From Chloroflexota bacterium (GTDB lineage: Bacteria; Chloroflexota; UBA11872; VXOZ01), in NCBI GenBank assembly GCA_012270555.1, contig JAAXIC010000017.1, forward strand, positions 106,151 to 170,150: 64,000 nucleotides of DNA, given 5' to 3'. Within the stretch, counting starts at the first letter, position 1. Each line of letters begins with the position of its first letter. Below the pieces are notes generated by a model that saw nothing but the letters and a program-made list of their open reading frames with translations, did not search any database and was not told the DNA's origin. Both the position numbers and the translations under genes were made by a program. Positions 6,602 through 52,262 of this stretch are shown here, piece after piece.

Positions 6602-6638
6602 CACCCTCACCCCGGCCCTCTCCCAGCGGGAGAGGGGG
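6602..6638. repeat. CTCACCCCGGCCCTCTCCC repeat, copy at 6.6 kb
   Basis: CTC-rich element followed by its partial complement GGGAGAGGGG, able to form a hairpin. It sits downstream of the minus-strand YchF-like gene and belongs to a family with about ten more copies between 34 and 60 kb. Confidence 0.7.
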
Positions 6639-32900: not shown

Positions 32901-33145
32901 CTTTGCGACTCCTTGAGCGCTGTAGTGGTCTTTCCGACAAGCCTATCACAGGTATAGTGACGTAGTTGTCGCGTGTGAGGTCAAGGCGACTGGAACACGT
33001 CGACGATTCACGCTACGATAAGACCTAACGGAGGATGTTGGCCGCATTGCCGTGCGCGGCAGGTTGGTAGAGCGGCTCACCGAGACAAACAGCGAGTTAG
33101 AGTACCCGCGGCAAGCCCGCACGAAAGCGATTGGAGAAAAGTACC

Positions 33146-33799
33146 ATGCGACGACGATCTGTTTGTTCCCTTCTGCTCAGCGGCACATCCGCAGCCGCGC
33201 TCGCAGCCTGCGGCGGTGGCTCAACGCTGATCGAAACCGAGAAAGAGGAGCCCGCGGCCGCGAAGGAAGAGGTCAAGGCGGAGCCAACCGCCGCCCCGGC
33301 TGAAACCGCGAAGCAGGCTGAAGTTGCGCCGACTGCGGCGCCAGCACTCGATATGCCCAATCTTGGCAAAGCGCCCGAGATTACGCTCACCGGCTGGTTC
33401 AACTCGGAGCCCATTACGTTGGCGAGCTTGGAGGGCAAAGCCTCCGCCCTCATTGTATTCTGGACGTACACCTGACCGGTCTGCCGCAGTGAAATCCCCA
33501 GTTTGGTGGATCTCTTTGATACGTACCACGACGACCGCTTCAAGCTGATCACCGTGCACTTTCCGCACGCCGGTTCTTCCAGAGACATCAGCGGAATCAA
33601 AGACCGGGCTGATGCCCTCGGCGTCACCTATCCGGTGGTAGTGGACAACGATTTGGTGCTCTGGAATGCCTTTGGCACCCGCACGTGGCCGGCCTTCTAC
33701 GGCATCGATCGGCAGGGCAACATCCGCTTTGCAAAATTCGGCGGTGGCAGTTTCGAGATAGTGGTCGATGCCGTGAAGCAGCTCAAGGAGTTGGGCTAA
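33146..33799 (+). CDS. selenocysteine-containing TlpA-like redoxin lipoprotein, copy 1 (TGA = Sec110)
   Basis: Thioredoxin-fold lipoprotein of 217 residues when the in-frame TGA at 33473-33475 is read as selenocysteine. The signal peptide has RRR and lipobox ALAAC (Cys22), then an Ala/Glu/Pro linker to about residue 70, then the redoxin domain. The active site reads FWTYT-U-PVC, with Sec110 replacing the first Cys of CxxC and Cys113 the second; WTYTCxxC is the usual form in DipZ-type redoxins. The frame continues past TGA with a complete fold: IDRQGNIRF, a WP cis-Pro region and an amphipathic C-terminal helix. GGAG nine bases before the ATG at 33146 sets the start; a TTG at 33131 is less likely. 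A hairpin terminator follows. Conventional annotation would call this two short ORFs or a pseudogene. Confidence 0.85.
33491..33514 (+). promoter_or_regulatory. bacterial SECIS-like hairpin of redoxin copy 1
   Basis: Begins 15 bases after the TGA. Stem: G-C, A-T, mismatch, A-T, T-A, C-G, C-G, mismatch, C-G, closing a loop AGTTTG that starts 24 bases after TGA with G as its second base. This matches known bacterial SECIS geometry (apical loop 16-37 bases from UGA, G in the first two loop positions). Confidence 0.7.
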
Positions 33800-33860
33800 G
33801 CGGAAGGGGCGTTGACCACTTGGCCTAGATCCCAGTGGCGCTGCCTCAGAGACACGAATT

Positions 33861-33900
33861 CAGTGCGCGGTGTACGTACGGACACCGCGCACTGTTCTTG
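33861..33900 (+). terminator. terminator of redoxin copy 1
   Basis: Perfect 13-base-pair stem (33861-33873 with 33882-33894, CAGTGCGCGGTGT/ACACCGCGCACTG), 8-base loop, then TTCTTG. Sixty bases after the stop codon. Confidence 0.75.
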
Positions 33901-33967
33901 CCATGGGTACAGCCATGCAGGAACGTTCTTTGAAGATCTTTGTACAACACTTGATGAAGCGAAACTG

Positions 33968-34009
33968 TCCCCTCTCCGTCAAGGGAGAGGGCTAGGGTGA
34001 GGGTGATTC
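33968..34009. repeat. CTCACCCCGGCCCTCTCCC-family repeat (inverted copy)
   Basis: CCCTCTCCGTCAAGGGAGAGGG stem followed by CTAGGGTGAGGG, complementary to the family consensus. Confidence 0.65.
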
Positions 34010-34092
34010 CTTAGGATTTCAACCGCTTTTCGGCGGCTGATTGGTGTTTTGGGTAGGAGGTCTGGAGTTGTTCTGCTGGAAAGCCATGGATT

Positions 34093-34127
34093 CCCCTCAC
34101 CCCAACCCTCTCCCCGAGGAGAGGGCG
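34093..34127. repeat. CTCACCCCGGCCCTCTCCC-family repeat
   Basis: CCCTCACCCCAACCCTCTCC followed by CGAGGAGAGGG. Opposite orientation to the copy at 33968-34009, so the pair could form a long hairpin. Confidence 0.65.
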
Positions 34128-34239
34128 CACCTCCTTTGCCGCTGGCATTTGTTATGCAAGGATTTCCTTTGAAGGCGCAAGTCGCCGTGTCTGGGAGGCA
34201 GCGGCAATAATCTGGCAAGCAGGCTGTCGCGCCTTAAAT

Positions 34240-34279
34240 GAAAACCGTCTGCGGTGCAATCAGCACACCACAGACGGTT
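34240..34279 (-). terminator. terminator of redoxin copy 2
   Basis: Read on the minus strand: ACCGTCTGTGGTG and CACCGCAGACGGT form a 13-pair stem with one G-U pair and a 9-base loop, followed by TTTCATTTAA. About 40 bases after the stop codon. Confidence 0.8.
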
Positions 34280-34316
34280 CACTTATTGCGACCGATGTCC
34301 AAATGCCGCAGGTAGG

Positions 34317-34985
34317 CTAGCCCGCAGCCTTCAGTTTGCCGATCACTTCAAGGATAGAGTCGATGCCGGCGCCAACTTGCTTGAAGCGGATGTCTCCTTG
34401 TTTATCGACTGCGTAGGCAACTGGCCAGGCATTGTTGCCGTAGTCGTTCCAGGCCGACAGGTCGTTGTCAATCGCCACCGGGAAATTGACATTGAGATTC
34501 CCAGCATTTTCGGCAATGACGCTCACGTCCGTGGAAGCACCCAAGGCCGGGAAGTGAATGCTGATGAGCTTGAAGCTGTCGTCAACGAGCGTGTTCTGGA
34601 TGTCCACCCAACTGGGGACTTCGCCGCGGCACACCGGTCAGGTGTAGGTCCAGAATACGATGAGGGCGGAGGCTTTGCCCTCCAAGCTCGCCAACGTAAT
34701 GGGCTCGGAGTTGAGCCATTCCGTAAGCGTGATCTCCGGCGCCTTGCCAAGGTTCGGCAGGTCGAGTTCGGGCGCTGCCGTCGGCTCAGGCTCCGCTTTT
34801 TGTTCCGGTTCAGCCGTCGGCTGGGCCTCCTCGGGGGCCGCGGTTGGCTCCACCTTGGCCTCCTGCGTGGTTTCGGCCGGCTTCTCCTCCTCTGTGTCGA
34901 GCAGCGTTGAGCCACCACCGCAGGCCGCGAGCGCGGCCATGGAAGCGCCGCTTAGCAGCAGCGTACAAACAGATCGACGTCGCAT
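34317..34985 (-). CDS. selenocysteine-containing TlpA-like redoxin lipoprotein, copy 2 (TGA = Sec116)
   Basis: Paralogue of the 33-kb selenoprotein, 222 residues with TGA at 34640-34638 read as Sec116. Lipoprotein signal MRRRSVCTLLLSG... with lipobox ALAAC (Cys22), a longer Glu/Pro/Ala linker to about residue 76, and the redoxin domain with active site FWTYT-U-PVCRGE (Cys119 resolving). After the TGA the frame continues uninterrupted with VPSWVDI, DKQGDIRF and a final helix. AAGGAGGAG lies six bases before the ATG, a very strong ribosome binding site. The two genes converge. ccdA lies 209 bases upstream on the same strand. The protein should act outside the cytoplasmic membrane as a thiol/selenol reductant or peroxide-scavenging redoxin; which partner it reduces is unknown. 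Confidence 0.85.
34599..34622 (-). promoter_or_regulatory. bacterial SECIS-like hairpin of redoxin copy 2
   Basis: Same position and pairing as in copy 1: stem G-C, A-T, mismatch, G-C, T-A, C-G, C-G, mismatch, C-G; loop AGTTGG. The fourth pair is G-C here and A-T in copy 1, a compensatory change supporting a selected RNA structure. Confidence 0.7.
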
Positions 34986-39808: not shown

Positions 39809-39992
39809 GCCCACCGCTAGGCGGAGCCGCAACGTCAATTGCAGGGGATGCAGTTGAGCGTGCGATAGGAAGAGTCCTCTCTTCTTGTTGCGGGTGGTTA
39901 GTTTCGGTGCGCTGGACATAGCGCACGGGGATAGTGGATACGTGTGCGTCCGAGTTGGTGCGGGCGCGCTACTACAGTTTAAAGGATGGTAT

Positions 39993-40991
39993 ATGTTGGC
40001 GCTATTTTTAGCGGCCGTATGGTTTGCTATCACAATCGATGGCGGACCCACGGCGGAACTTTGCACGCAACTCGATACTGCGCGGGAGAGCTTGAGAGTC
40101 GCGGGCTGGCAGGGTGTAGACGTTTTCTACGAGGCTAATTGCGTACCGGAGCAGACGACTCCAACCACGACGGACATTGCGGGGCTGCAACTCAAAACCG
40201 CTCCGGAATCTGATGGCGGCCTTGCCTACGGACGCTGGATGTACGAACAGAACGGCTGGGATGATGCCGACGACGACGGCTGCAACACACGGGAAGAAGT
40301 GCTTGTTGCCGAGGCTCGCACGCTGGACACGGATGAAGATGCGTGCGTACCTCCCGGCACGTGGTATTCATGGTACGACGAAGAAACCATTACGAGTGCT
40401 AGAGGTGTGGACATAGACCACATGGTGCCCCTCGCAGAAGTGCACGATTCAGGGGGATGGCGGTGGTCCTACGCACGGCGCTTCGCGTATGCCAACGACC
40501 TGACGCTCTCTCAGACCTTGACTGCGGTCTCGGCGTCGAGCAATCGCTCCAAGGGCGGGCGTGATCCCGCGGAATGGAAGCCGTCTGCGGAGTCGGCGTG
40601 GTGCCAGTATGCGCAAGATTGGATTGCGGTGAAAGTGTTCTGGGGACTCAGCGTGGATGATGCAGAAGTAACGGCATTGCGCACGATGTTGGAGAAGTGT
40701 GATGGGACGCCGCAAATTGTCCTGCCCACGCCAACACCGACGCCAATCCCCACGGCGACGCCAACGCCAACTCCTACGCCTACGGCGACTGCGACCCCGA
40801 CATCCACTCCTACGCTTACGCCCACGCCTACTCCGACGCCAACAACCGTGTATGCAAGCTGTGCGGCGGCGGAAGCGGCCGGTGTGGAAAGAGTTCAAGG
40901 CAGTAACGGCGACGGTCGCGGCTTCCCGATAGAGATCATTGCCGACCCGCCGCGCGATGGTGACGGCGATGGAATCGTGTGTGAAACCTAG
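39993..40991 (+). CDS. secreted HNH nuclease (GmrSD C-terminal-like) with PT-rich linker and excalibur domain
   Basis: Predicted exported nuclease of 332 residues. A short hydrophobic signal (MLALFLAAVWFAITI) starts at 39993 after AAAGGATGG. The middle carries the GmrSD_C/HNH type motif VDIDHMVPLAEVHDSG followed by ASSNRSKGGRDPAEW and WCQYAQDWIAVK, the conserved block of these secreted HNH proteins. A threonine/proline repeat linker (about 40728-40848) joins it to a C-terminal excalibur domain with CAAAEAAG and the calcium-binding DGDGDGIVCE. Role likely extracellular DNA degradation or nutrient release; a toxin function cannot be excluded. No immunity gene is adjacent. Confidence 0.82.
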   Translation: MLALFLAAVWFAITIDGGPTAELCTQLDTARESLRVAGWQGVDVFYEANCVPEQTTPTTTDIAGLQLKTAPESDGGLAYGRWMYEQNGWDDADDDGCNTREEVLVAEARTLDTDEDACVPPGTWYSWYDEETITSARGVDIDHMVPLAEVHDSGGWRWSYARRFAYANDLTLSQTLTAVSASSNRSKGGRDPAEWKPSAESAWCQYAQDWIAVKVFWGLSVDDAEVTALRTMLEKCDGTPQIVLPTPTPTPIPTATPTPTPTPTATATPTSTPTLTPTPTPTPTTVYASCAAAEAAGVERVQGSNGDGRGFPIEIIADPPRDGDGDGIVCET

Positions 40992-42171: not shown

Positions 42172-42380
42172 ACAGATGCACCCATGGTTCTTTTAAAAGT
42201 GGCGACGTTCCAACGCTCCATTCCCTGAAAAGGCAAGTTCGACCGGAAAGCGTTTGCGTCACCGCGTAGCGGCGAAAGGCCCTTTTGGCTAAGGTCGTGA
42301 AAGGCCGAGCAAGGTATATTGGATTACGTAGGTGCGCTGGCGCGCTTTAGACCGCACCTCGATTGTGTAGGGGTTTCCGA

Positions 42381-44252
42381 ATGTACACCATTGGCACTGC
42401 CGGACACGTCGACCACGGCAAGTCGACGCTGATTCAGGCGCTGACTGGCATCGACCCGGACCGGCTGCGCGAAGAGAAAGAGCGCGGGCTGACCATCGAT
42501 CTCGGCTTCGCGTGGCTGACGTTGCCTAGTGGCAAAGAAATCTCGATTGTCGACGTGCCCGGTCACGAACGGTTCATCAAGAACATGCTGGCGGGAGTAG
42601 GTGGCATCGACGCAGCGTTGCTCGTCATTGCGGCGGATGAAGGCGTCATGCCCCAGACGCGCGAGCACCTGGACATCCTCGACCTGTTGCGCGTTCCGGC
42701 GGGAATCCTGGTGCTTACCCGGTGTGATCTTGTAGAAGATGAAGAGTGGCTGCAGCTTGTCGAAGACGACGTGCGGGAAACGGTGGCAGGGACGGTCCTG
42801 GCCCAAAGCCCGCTCGTGCGCGTTTCCGCGGTTACCGGCGAGGGTCTCGACGCTCTGCGCGCGGCGCTCGACGCATTGCTCGCGGAAACGGATGCGAAAC
42901 GGGACGTGGGCCGTCCGCGTCTGCCTATCGACCGGGCCTTTACGCTCACCGGCTTCGGCACGATTGTCACCGGGACCCTGCTCGACGGCCAGCTCCACAC
43001 GGGAGATGAAGTGGAAATCGTGCCCGGCAACGTGAGCGGCCGCATGCGCGGGTTGCAGAGTCATAAGCACAAGATTGAGACTGCGCTGCCGGGAAACCGT
43101 GTCGCCGTGAACGTCGGCGGGGTTGACGTGGAGGACATCTATCGCGGTCAGGTGCTCACCCTCCCTCGCATGCTCACCGCGACGCGCTTTGCCGACGTGC
43201 GCATCCGGCTCCTGTCCTCCGCGCCGCAGCCGCTCGAGCACGGGATGGTGCTGACGCTGCATAGTGGGACGATGGAGACGCTGGCCCGCGTGCGGCTACT
43301 CGACCGCGAGGAAATCCCGCCGGGTGAAGAAGGGCTGGCGCAACTGCTATTGATTAAGCCGGTGAGCTTGATTAAGGGCGACCTCTTCATTATCCGCCAA
43401 CTCAGCCCGGCGGCGACGCTTGGCGGAGGCGAGGTCCTCGACCCCTACCCGCCGCGCCACAAACGCTTTGCCGCTGACGTAGTTTCGGCGCTAGAGACTC
43501 TGGAGCGCGGCTCGCCGGCAGACATGGTGCTCCAGGCCATCCGGCAGCGGGAACCCTGCACTCAGGCGGAAATCGCCGGAGCGCTTCCATTCACCGCTGT
43601 GGAGGTAGAGGAAGTCCTGGCGAGGCTCATGGGAGCGGAACAGGTGATAGACCTGGGGCGCTCCCTGTACTCCGCTGGAGGCTGGGCCAGCATAACGGAA
43701 CGCGTAACCACGCTGCTCGAGCAGTTCCACGCGCGTTACCCCCTGCGCAACGGGCAGGGCAAGGAGGAGGTGCGGCGAAGTCTGGGCCTGGAGAGCCGGG
43801 TTTTCAACGAGATAGTGCAGCGGCTTTGCGCCGATGAAGTGATTGCCGAAAGAGAAGGCGCTTTGCGCGCGTTCGACTTTCGCATTGCACTGAGCCCGAC
43901 GCAAGAAGAAACCGCGGCGACACTGCTCGCAGTGCTGGAACGAGAGCCGTTAGCCCCGCCGAGTTTGAGCGACATCCGCGAAAGGCTTGCAGTAGATGAC
44001 GATTTCTTGAATGTGCTGGTGGAGCAGGGCCGGATTGTCCGGGTGGACACCGATCTCATCTACTCGCGCCAGGCGTATGCACAGGCGGTGGAGAGAGTGC
44101 GGGAACTCCTGACCCGCGTAGAGCGGGTAACGGTGGCACAGGTCCGCGACGCCTTTGGCACTAGCCGGAAGTACGTGCTGCCGTTGTTGGAGCAAATGGA
44201 CCGCGACAGTGTGACTCAGCGTGATGGGGATGAGCGCACCCTTGCCAAATAA
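42381..44252 (+). CDS. selB: selenocysteine-specific translation elongation factor SelB
   Basis: Delivers Sec-tRNA to ribosomes paused at UGA codons with a SECIS element. 623 residues, near the E. coli length of 614. GTPase motifs: GHVDHGKS (8-15), DVPGHE (58-63), TRCD (113-116, a TKCD/NKxD variant), VSAVTGEG. Domains II and III follow, and the C-terminal ~240 residues contain the winged-helix repeats typical of SelB that bind the SECIS hairpin (for example [22 protein letters not shown]). AGGGG precedes the ATG. This supports selenocysteine use by this genome and fits the two UGA-containing genes at 33-35 kb. selA, selD and tRNA-Sec were not found in the window. Confidence 0.93.
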
Positions 44253-50902: not shown

Positions 50903-51247
50903 TGCAATTCCTTACGTGAGATGTGTGCTGGTTCGTAGGAGGACACGTTCTATAATTCGATCCGGTTGAGAAAAGGCAACCCGCGCCCAGAGAACGTGAG
51001 CAAACGTGCAGTGAGGAGTAGCATTTTCACCTGGGTTCCCGACACCTTACAGGATTAATAGGCATGCGCTCTTAGGTTGTTCCGACGCGTTTCCCTACGA
51101 AGCCTCTGTGTAACTCTGTGGGACAGTTGGCATTGGCTGATGGGTATTGATTTCCCCTCACCCCGGCCCTCTCCCCAAGGAGAGGGTGTAAATCCTTCGC
51201 TTCCAGCATTAGTTGCGCAAAGGTCTCACTCGGTGGGGAAGTGCGCA
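50903..51247. other. intergenic region with a CTCACCC-family repeat
   Basis: 345 bases between the DrrA-like and YdeI-like genes, both on the minus strand. Contains one CTCACCCCGGCCCTCTCCC copy (51153-51187) and no gene. Confidence 0.6.
51153..51187. repeat. CTCACCCCGGCCCTCTCCC-family repeat
   Basis: Consensus left arm followed by CCAAGGAGAGGG, forming a short stem. Confidence 0.7.
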
Positions 51248-52040: not shown

Positions 52041-52262
52041 CCTCACCCCGGCCCTCTCCCCTAGGAGACCTTCGGATAACCCATGCGCCAAGACCCCCTC
52101 ACCCTAACCCTCTCCCCCAGGAGAGGGAACTTTGTCGGCTTCGCATTCAAGTTGTTAAGCTATCTGCTCCCTCTTCCCAGGGGAGGGAACTGGAGCCGCT
52201 CCGCGTTCACGTGGCTCCGCATTCTGCACCCTCTCCCACTGGGAGAGGGCCGGGGTGAGGGG
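52041..52262. repeat. cluster of CTCACCCCGGCCCTCTCCC-family repeats
   Basis: Copies at 52041-52066, 52094-52129, 52166-52190 and an inverted one at 52228-52262. Four elements in 222 bases, the densest cluster in the window; direct and inverted copies could pair. Confidence 0.7.

Follow-up and report, generated by a model that had tools for sequence, protein, structure and literature searches.

Predicted selenocysteine-containing redoxin lipoproteins encoded by two convergent paralogous genes near ccdA in a Chloroflexota bacterium

Two convergent paralogous genes of a Chloroflexota bacterium, here termed gene A and gene B, are predicted to encode selenoproteins in which an in-frame TGA, placed where DipZ/ResA-type redoxins have their first catalytic cysteine, is read as selenocysteine (Sec), and we give this reading a probability of about 0.9. 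The genes lie in a stretch of 64,000 nucleotides (contig JAAXIC010000017.1, positions 106,151 to 170,150), called the window below. A preliminary description of the window had already proposed that the pair are selenoproteins, and the proposal is now supported by cysteine-containing homologues, by the Sec machinery of the genome, and by the presence of the TGA in five genomes. The features are given with their positions in the window.

33146..33799, plus strand: gene A, predicted selenocysteine redoxin lipoprotein (217 residues, Sec110, Cys113, WP motif at 181-182)
33473..33475, plus strand: in-frame TGA of gene A, predicted Sec codon
33494..33511, plus strand: SECIS-like hairpin of gene A, ATCCCC-AGTTT-GG(T)GGAT
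33861..33894, plus strand: terminator-like hairpin 3' of gene A (-26.4 kcal/mol, z -5.80)
34243..34279, minus strand: terminator-like hairpin 3' of gene B (-28.8 kcal/mol, z -6.81)
34317..34985, minus strand: gene B, predicted selenocysteine redoxin lipoprotein (222 residues, Sec116, Cys119), convergent with gene A
34602..34619, minus strand: SECIS-like hairpin of gene B, GTCCCC-AGTTG-GG(T)GGAC
34638..34640, minus strand: in-frame TGA of gene B, predicted Sec codon
35195..35947, minus strand: CcdA/DsbD-type transmembrane protein (PF02683, E 3.9e-20), upstream of gene B and co-directional with it
42363..44252, plus strand: selB, Sec-specific elongation factor (TIGR00475, 377.6 bits, over the cut-off; SelB domains)

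Each gene contains exactly one in-frame TGA, and the frame is otherwise open from ATG to TAA in gene A and to TAG in gene B, which bears out the earlier observation that both paralogues are broken by a TGA and continue in the same frame. The two convergent paralogues share about 61% amino acid identity, and the context of the TGA is identical in both (FWTYT-TGA-PVC, giving WTYT-U-P-V-C). Both N-termini read MRRRSVC...LAACGGGS, a signal-peptide-like stretch followed by a low-complexity linker rich in proline, alanine and glutamate, and the L-x-x-C pattern of a lipobox is found as LAAC at residues 19-22 of both translations; lipobox and linker were assigned by eye. The predicted structure of the gene A product has low confidence for the first ~60 residues, and the redoxin domain is confident from about residue 71. 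Sequences resembling ribosome binding sites (GGAG and AGGAGG) precede the two starts, and each gene is followed by a strong terminator-like hairpin, in line with the signals that had been reported as intact, although these hairpins were selected by eye and a consensus terminator scan listed neither of them; its only hit, with 1.5 expected, was a weak one where gene B starts. The region between the genes also holds two inverted copies of a dispersed G-rich repeat, GAGAGGGYYRGGGTGAGGG, which has six matches in the window (33983-34003, 34094-34114, 6603-6622, 51154-51173, 52095-52114 and 52243-52262) against 0.01 expected. Elsewhere in the window, positions 39885-40991 may encode a secreted nuclease, with a GmrSD C-terminal domain barely over the cut-off and a long Thr-Pro repeat linker.

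Standard gene calling splits both genes, as had been anticipated: an open reading frame listing with translation table 11 breaks gene A into 33131-33475 and 33503-33799, and gene B into 34985-34638 and 34634-34317. These are exactly the pieces that would be obtained if the TGA were a true stop, leaving either pseudogenes or a short lipoprotein together with a re-initiated C-terminal piece, and two public fragments among the database homologues (P0003 and P0011) end precisely at WTYT, the kind of caller-truncated relative that the preliminary description had expected. However, we regard a true stop as very improbable, as the piece after the TGA would be without the strand preceding the active site and without the first active-site residue, and the comparisons with relatives below also speak against it.

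The claim that the TGA sits at the first active-site cysteine agrees with all homologues that could be compared. Cysteine occupies the TGA position in 32 of the 32 database homologues aligned, out of 66 found, the other 34, including the truncated P0003 and P0011, having been left out of the alignment; its columns 110, 113, 181 and 182 are invariant or nearly so. The genome search covered 121 Chloroflexota genomes, 111 of which gave matches with E ≤ 0.001. Among 45 non-duplicate fetched rows, which combine the best 30 loci of this search with hand-chosen regions, the site codon is TGA in 22, a cysteine codon (TGC or TGT) in 23, and anything else in none; same-locus duplicates (L024-L029, L041 and L054-L056) and the distant ResA-like L074 had been dropped before this comparison. 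One of the cysteine rows (L037) is without the second cysteine. The 22 TGA rows comprise five copies of A, five of B, six of a third paralogue C, one free-standing redoxin, and five redoxin-NHL fusions. The free-standing redoxin (G112, L067:7711-8238) comes from another class of the phylum; its motif is WTFG-TGA-INC, and its 8-bp hairpin is displaced by one base.

Within the genus, six genomes were compared (G000-G005), of which G000 is the genome of the window (97% complete) and G005 is 69% complete. The TGA and the downstream frame of A and B are kept in all five genomes that hold the pair (G000-G004), and neither gene was found in G005. Paralogue C (motif WTYG-TGA-INC; L061:7914-8474 on G000:C37, and L062-L066) lies in G000 on a different contig from the pair, and keeps its TGA in all six genomes. 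Taken together, all 16 matches to A, B and C carry one TGA each, and all are within the genus, a constancy that speaks against a true stop. Gene A is present at 78-89% identity in three Chloroflexota loci. A sequencing error behind the TGAs, which the preliminary description had named as a condition to be checked, is very unlikely, as the identical TGA is found in five genomes of the genus.

The ratio of dN to dS after the TGA, calculated across the genus, is 0.045-0.112 for A, 0.035-0.143 for B and 0.011-0.099 for C. These values indicate that the part downstream of the TGA is under purifying selection, and the overall range of 0.011-0.143 argues against a true stop. In the phylogenetic tree, which took in 13 of the 23 cysteine loci and 12 database homologues, A and B are sisters with C as their neighbour, and the three form one genus-specific clade (100/99) that adjoins two cysteine redoxins of the same class (89/84). 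As A, B and C form one clade, the TGAs of A and B do not count as separate events, and the TGA was most simply present already before the duplication that gave rise to A and B. The earlier argument that nonsense mutations at the same codon of both copies are unlikely is therefore weak, since the tree makes common descent the simplest source of the shared TGA. Sec may have arisen among these redoxins in a single event or in several, as the tree gives three label changes, with long branches meeting.

The genome of the window encodes the components required for Sec insertion, whose possible absence had been named as a point to be checked. A tRNA-Sec with the anticodon TCA was found at 67.1 bits (over the cut-off), selA at 571.8 bits (above the curated cut-off) and selD at 381.6 bits (over the cut-off), in addition to selB inside the window. 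The selD gene (L020, G000:C48:24402-25331) itself contains one TGA, near its start, in the context ACAG-TGA-AGK. In the genus, selA is found in six of six genomes, and a tRNA-Sec over the cut-off in four of the other five, the miss being the incomplete G005. The presence of selA discriminates little, since it is found in 167 of 201 Chloroflexota genomes, and among these 201 it fails to set carriers of Sec apart from carriers of Cys.

The same data bear on the possibility that a non-standard tRNA inserts cysteine or some other amino acid at UGA, or that UGA is reassigned genome-wide. Cys-inserting suppressor tRNAs exist, and the cysteine at the aligned site of the relatives would suit such a tRNA. 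However, ARAGORN assigned other anticodons to 46 of the 47 other tRNA matches in the genome and did not recognise the remaining, weak one, so that TCA was seen only in the tRNA-Sec. Furthermore, TGA terminates three of the 14 neighbouring genes checked, and is thus a normal stop in this genome, and a hairpin downstream of the codon would be unnecessary for such decoding. We therefore hold this alternative to be highly unlikely, and return to the reading of the TGA as Sec.

A SECIS-like hairpin, predicted from the aligned sequences and conserved across relatives, is found just after the TGA. It consists of 18 bases beginning 18 nt past the TGA, with five fixed pairs, which are formed in 99.0% of the cells of 21 distinct TGA rows and in 23.8% of the cells of 21 distinct Cys rows, a comparison that is biased toward the TGA rows, on which the stem was selected. 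RNAalifold, unprompted, predicts this stem from the TGA rows. In none of 500 shuffles were the values of the TGA rows matched for paired cells, for cells changed on both sides, or for the covariation score, and both-sided change is seen in three of the five pairs, a count reached by 138 of 500 shuffles; the rows in these tests are related by descent, five of them being NHL-fused redoxins, and the shuffles ignore this kinship. At codons for invariant amino acids, synonymous variation is found in 1 of 16 within the hairpin versus 138 of 234 elsewhere (Fisher p 2.9e-5). The sole varying hairpin codon is GAT/GAC in B, and it is paired with an ATC/GTC change on the opposite side of the stem; among the B orthologues, one stem pair is G-C in G000 and G004 versus A-U in G001-G003. 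The scarcity of synonymous changes and the covarying hairpin directly downstream likewise argue against a true stop.

The first or second loop base is a G, and the loop is situated 24 nt past the TGA in both A and B. The bacterial SECIS model stated in a published inventory places the loop 16-37 nt after the TGA and sets an energy limit of -7.5 kcal/mol (PMC13188914), and the loop size, the loop G and the 24-nt spacing of the A and B hairpins fit this model. Their stability is not unusual versus shuffled sequence: the 27-nt hairpin stretches have -6.3 kcal/mol (z -1.16) in A and -7.9 kcal/mol (z -0.68) in B. Depending on the stretch folded, energies range from -6.3 to -9.2 kcal/mol in A and from -7.9 to -8.4 kcal/mol for the proposed stem in B, set against the limit of -7.5 kcal/mol, and four of the six C hairpins (-5.4 to -5.7 kcal/mol) and three of the five B hairpins (-6.9 kcal/mol) lie above that limit. 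When all model-compliant hairpins are considered, synonymous recodings equal the energy in 45 of 200 cases for A and 106 of 200 for B, and the lowest-energy compliant hairpin differs from the proposed stem in B of G000, B of G004 and C of G003. All five fixed pairs arise in 294 of 5000 recodings of A and 423 of 5000 of B. Tests for a SECIS element on energy alone thus do not distinguish A and B from recoded or shuffled sequence. The search for a bacterial SECIS that the preliminary description had suggested therefore had a divided outcome, as a conserved, covarying hairpin was found, while the energies of the single hairpins are not unusual.

With respect to the protein family, AhpC-TSA (PF00578, the best family) and Redoxin (PF08534) exceed the Pfam cut-offs for A and B, and no NCBIfam model exceeds its own for either. 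WAxxUGC_long (NF041054) scores 32.1 and 33.4 bits for A and B, under the curated cut-off of 300, and the ResA subfamily (NF002854) 46.3 and 42.8 bits, under the curated cut-off of 170. The closest solved structure by sequence and by fold is the C-terminal domain of Mycobacterium tuberculosis DipZ (2hyx, 5cyy; sequence E 2.8e-27, structure E 4.1e-15), and ResA, Etrx2, YkuV, SOQ1 and human NHLRC2 are further matches by sequence or structure. Modelling and comparison place A and B among the TlpA/ResA/DipZ-type redoxins, with a predicted thioredoxin fold, a CxxC-type centre and a WP motif of the cis-Pro type. In DipZ, a CcdA-type membrane part is fused to the redoxin domain, and cysteine aligns opposite the TGA position, whereas A and B have the TGA there and are separate redoxin proteins with a lipobox-like N-terminus.

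A ccdA gene adjoins gene B in five of five genomes (the window and G001-G004); the arrangement fucosidase, A, B, ccdA, prs, ddl is conserved in G001-G004. The spacing between ccdA and B is 209 nt in the window, which leaves co-transcription uncertain, and gene A has no adjacent ccdA on its own strand. The neighbours of paralogue C, including leucyl-tRNA synthetase and sulfatase genes, give no functional hint. As the adjacency to ccdA is kept and B is co-directional with it, we favour a role as CcdA-fed extracytoplasmic disulfide reductases, a "split DipZ" with Sec in its outward-facing half, as the likeliest function, and give it even odds. In the mechanism that we infer, which extends to the electron donor, lipidation, the substrates and the actual insertion of Sec, the TGA would be decoded by the genome's own SelA, SelB, SelD and tRNA-Sec, with help from the SECIS-like hairpin. 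The lipobox-like N-terminus suggests that the products would be lipid-anchored redoxins at the outer face of the membrane, carrying their U-P-V-C redox centre on a flexible linker rich in proline, alanine and glutamate. The CcdA-type protein encoded beside B would then pass electrons across the membrane to the Sec-Cys selenenylsulfide, and the selenolate so released would in turn attack the disulfides of substrates outside the cytoplasm.

A and B could also be selenoproteins of another kind, namely peroxidases or other Sec-dependent reductases that are not fed by CcdA. This is a serious possibility, if clearly short of even odds, given that AhpC-TSA is the best Pfam family, that no NCBIfam family assigns a narrower function, and that Sec-containing peroxiredoxins are already known, as recorded in the inventory (PMC13188914). 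The UxxC motif, the ranking of DipZ and then of ResA-type thiol-disulfide oxidoreductases as the best solved relatives, and the ccdA gene next to B speak instead for the disulfide reductase.

Sec in a UxxC redoxin is in itself already known. Table 1 of the 2026 inventory has entries for a Redoxin family selenoprotein (UxxC, PF08534), a Prx-like thiol:disulfide oxidoreductase (UxxC, PF00578) and a thiol-disulfide isomerase-like protein (UxxC, cd02966), which share with A and B the replacement of the first cysteine by Sec, the thioredoxin fold and the Pfam families; the table mentions neither a lipoprotein form nor a pair of paralogues or a CcdA partner for these entries, and a close relative may be among them (PMC13188914). 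The ResA-like WAxxUGC selenoproteins (NF041054), or UGC-containing TlpA family, likewise have Sec first in a ResA-like active site, but their motif is UGC, whereas that of A and B is UPVC. A separate AhpC-TSA gene in the genome of the window (L109, G000:C41:8221-8571) has the motif WASW-TGA-GC and resembles these catalogued UGC-type selenoproteins. Judged from search listings of the open-licence literature, which covered Sec in DipZ and NHLRC2, NHL repeats in selenoproteins and thioredoxins, and the selenoproteins of Chloroflexota, we found no description of a trio of Sec lipoproteins with a ccdA neighbour, and a term search of the main texts of PMC5029168 and PMC2398784 gave no match. In 2006, three selenoproteins of three families were listed for Chloroflexi (Table 2 of PMC1794560).

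A further observation concerns redoxins fused to NHL repeats, which are NHLRC2-like, mostly have the sequence WTFC-TGA-INC (CUINC motif), and are widespread in Chloroflexota (L116-L145, L068-L072). Matches with E < 1e-75 are found in 45 of 201 Chloroflexota genomes, 36 of them with a TGA. Of the 30 loci fetched, 28 carry the TGA at the site and two read CC (second Cys of CCINC); the TGA is also at the site in G014 and G064, so that it was placed in 30 of the 36. All seven stem pairs of a hairpin with an AGTT loop are present in 24 of the 28 loci with the TGA at the site. The redoxin-NHL proteins are possibly an uncatalogued selenoprotein family; the word NHL is absent from the text and table of the 119-family inventory (PMC13188914).

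Overall, we tentatively propose, at somewhat less than even odds, an extracytoplasmic selenium relay in which CcdA would feed three Sec-lipoprotein redoxins that were duplicated in one Chloroflexota genus, within a wider tendency of Chloroflexota to use Sec in DipZ/NHLRC2-type redoxins, including the TGA-containing redoxin-NHL family. As standard gene calling cuts such proteins at their catalytic residue, outward-facing redox proteins of Chloroflexota are likely to be missing from databases or misread in them. The Sec paralogues, their cysteine relatives and the position-matched hairpins with and without Sec would make a good natural system in which to ask why a ResA/DipZ-type reductase keeps Sec, and how little of a hairpin this SelB needs.
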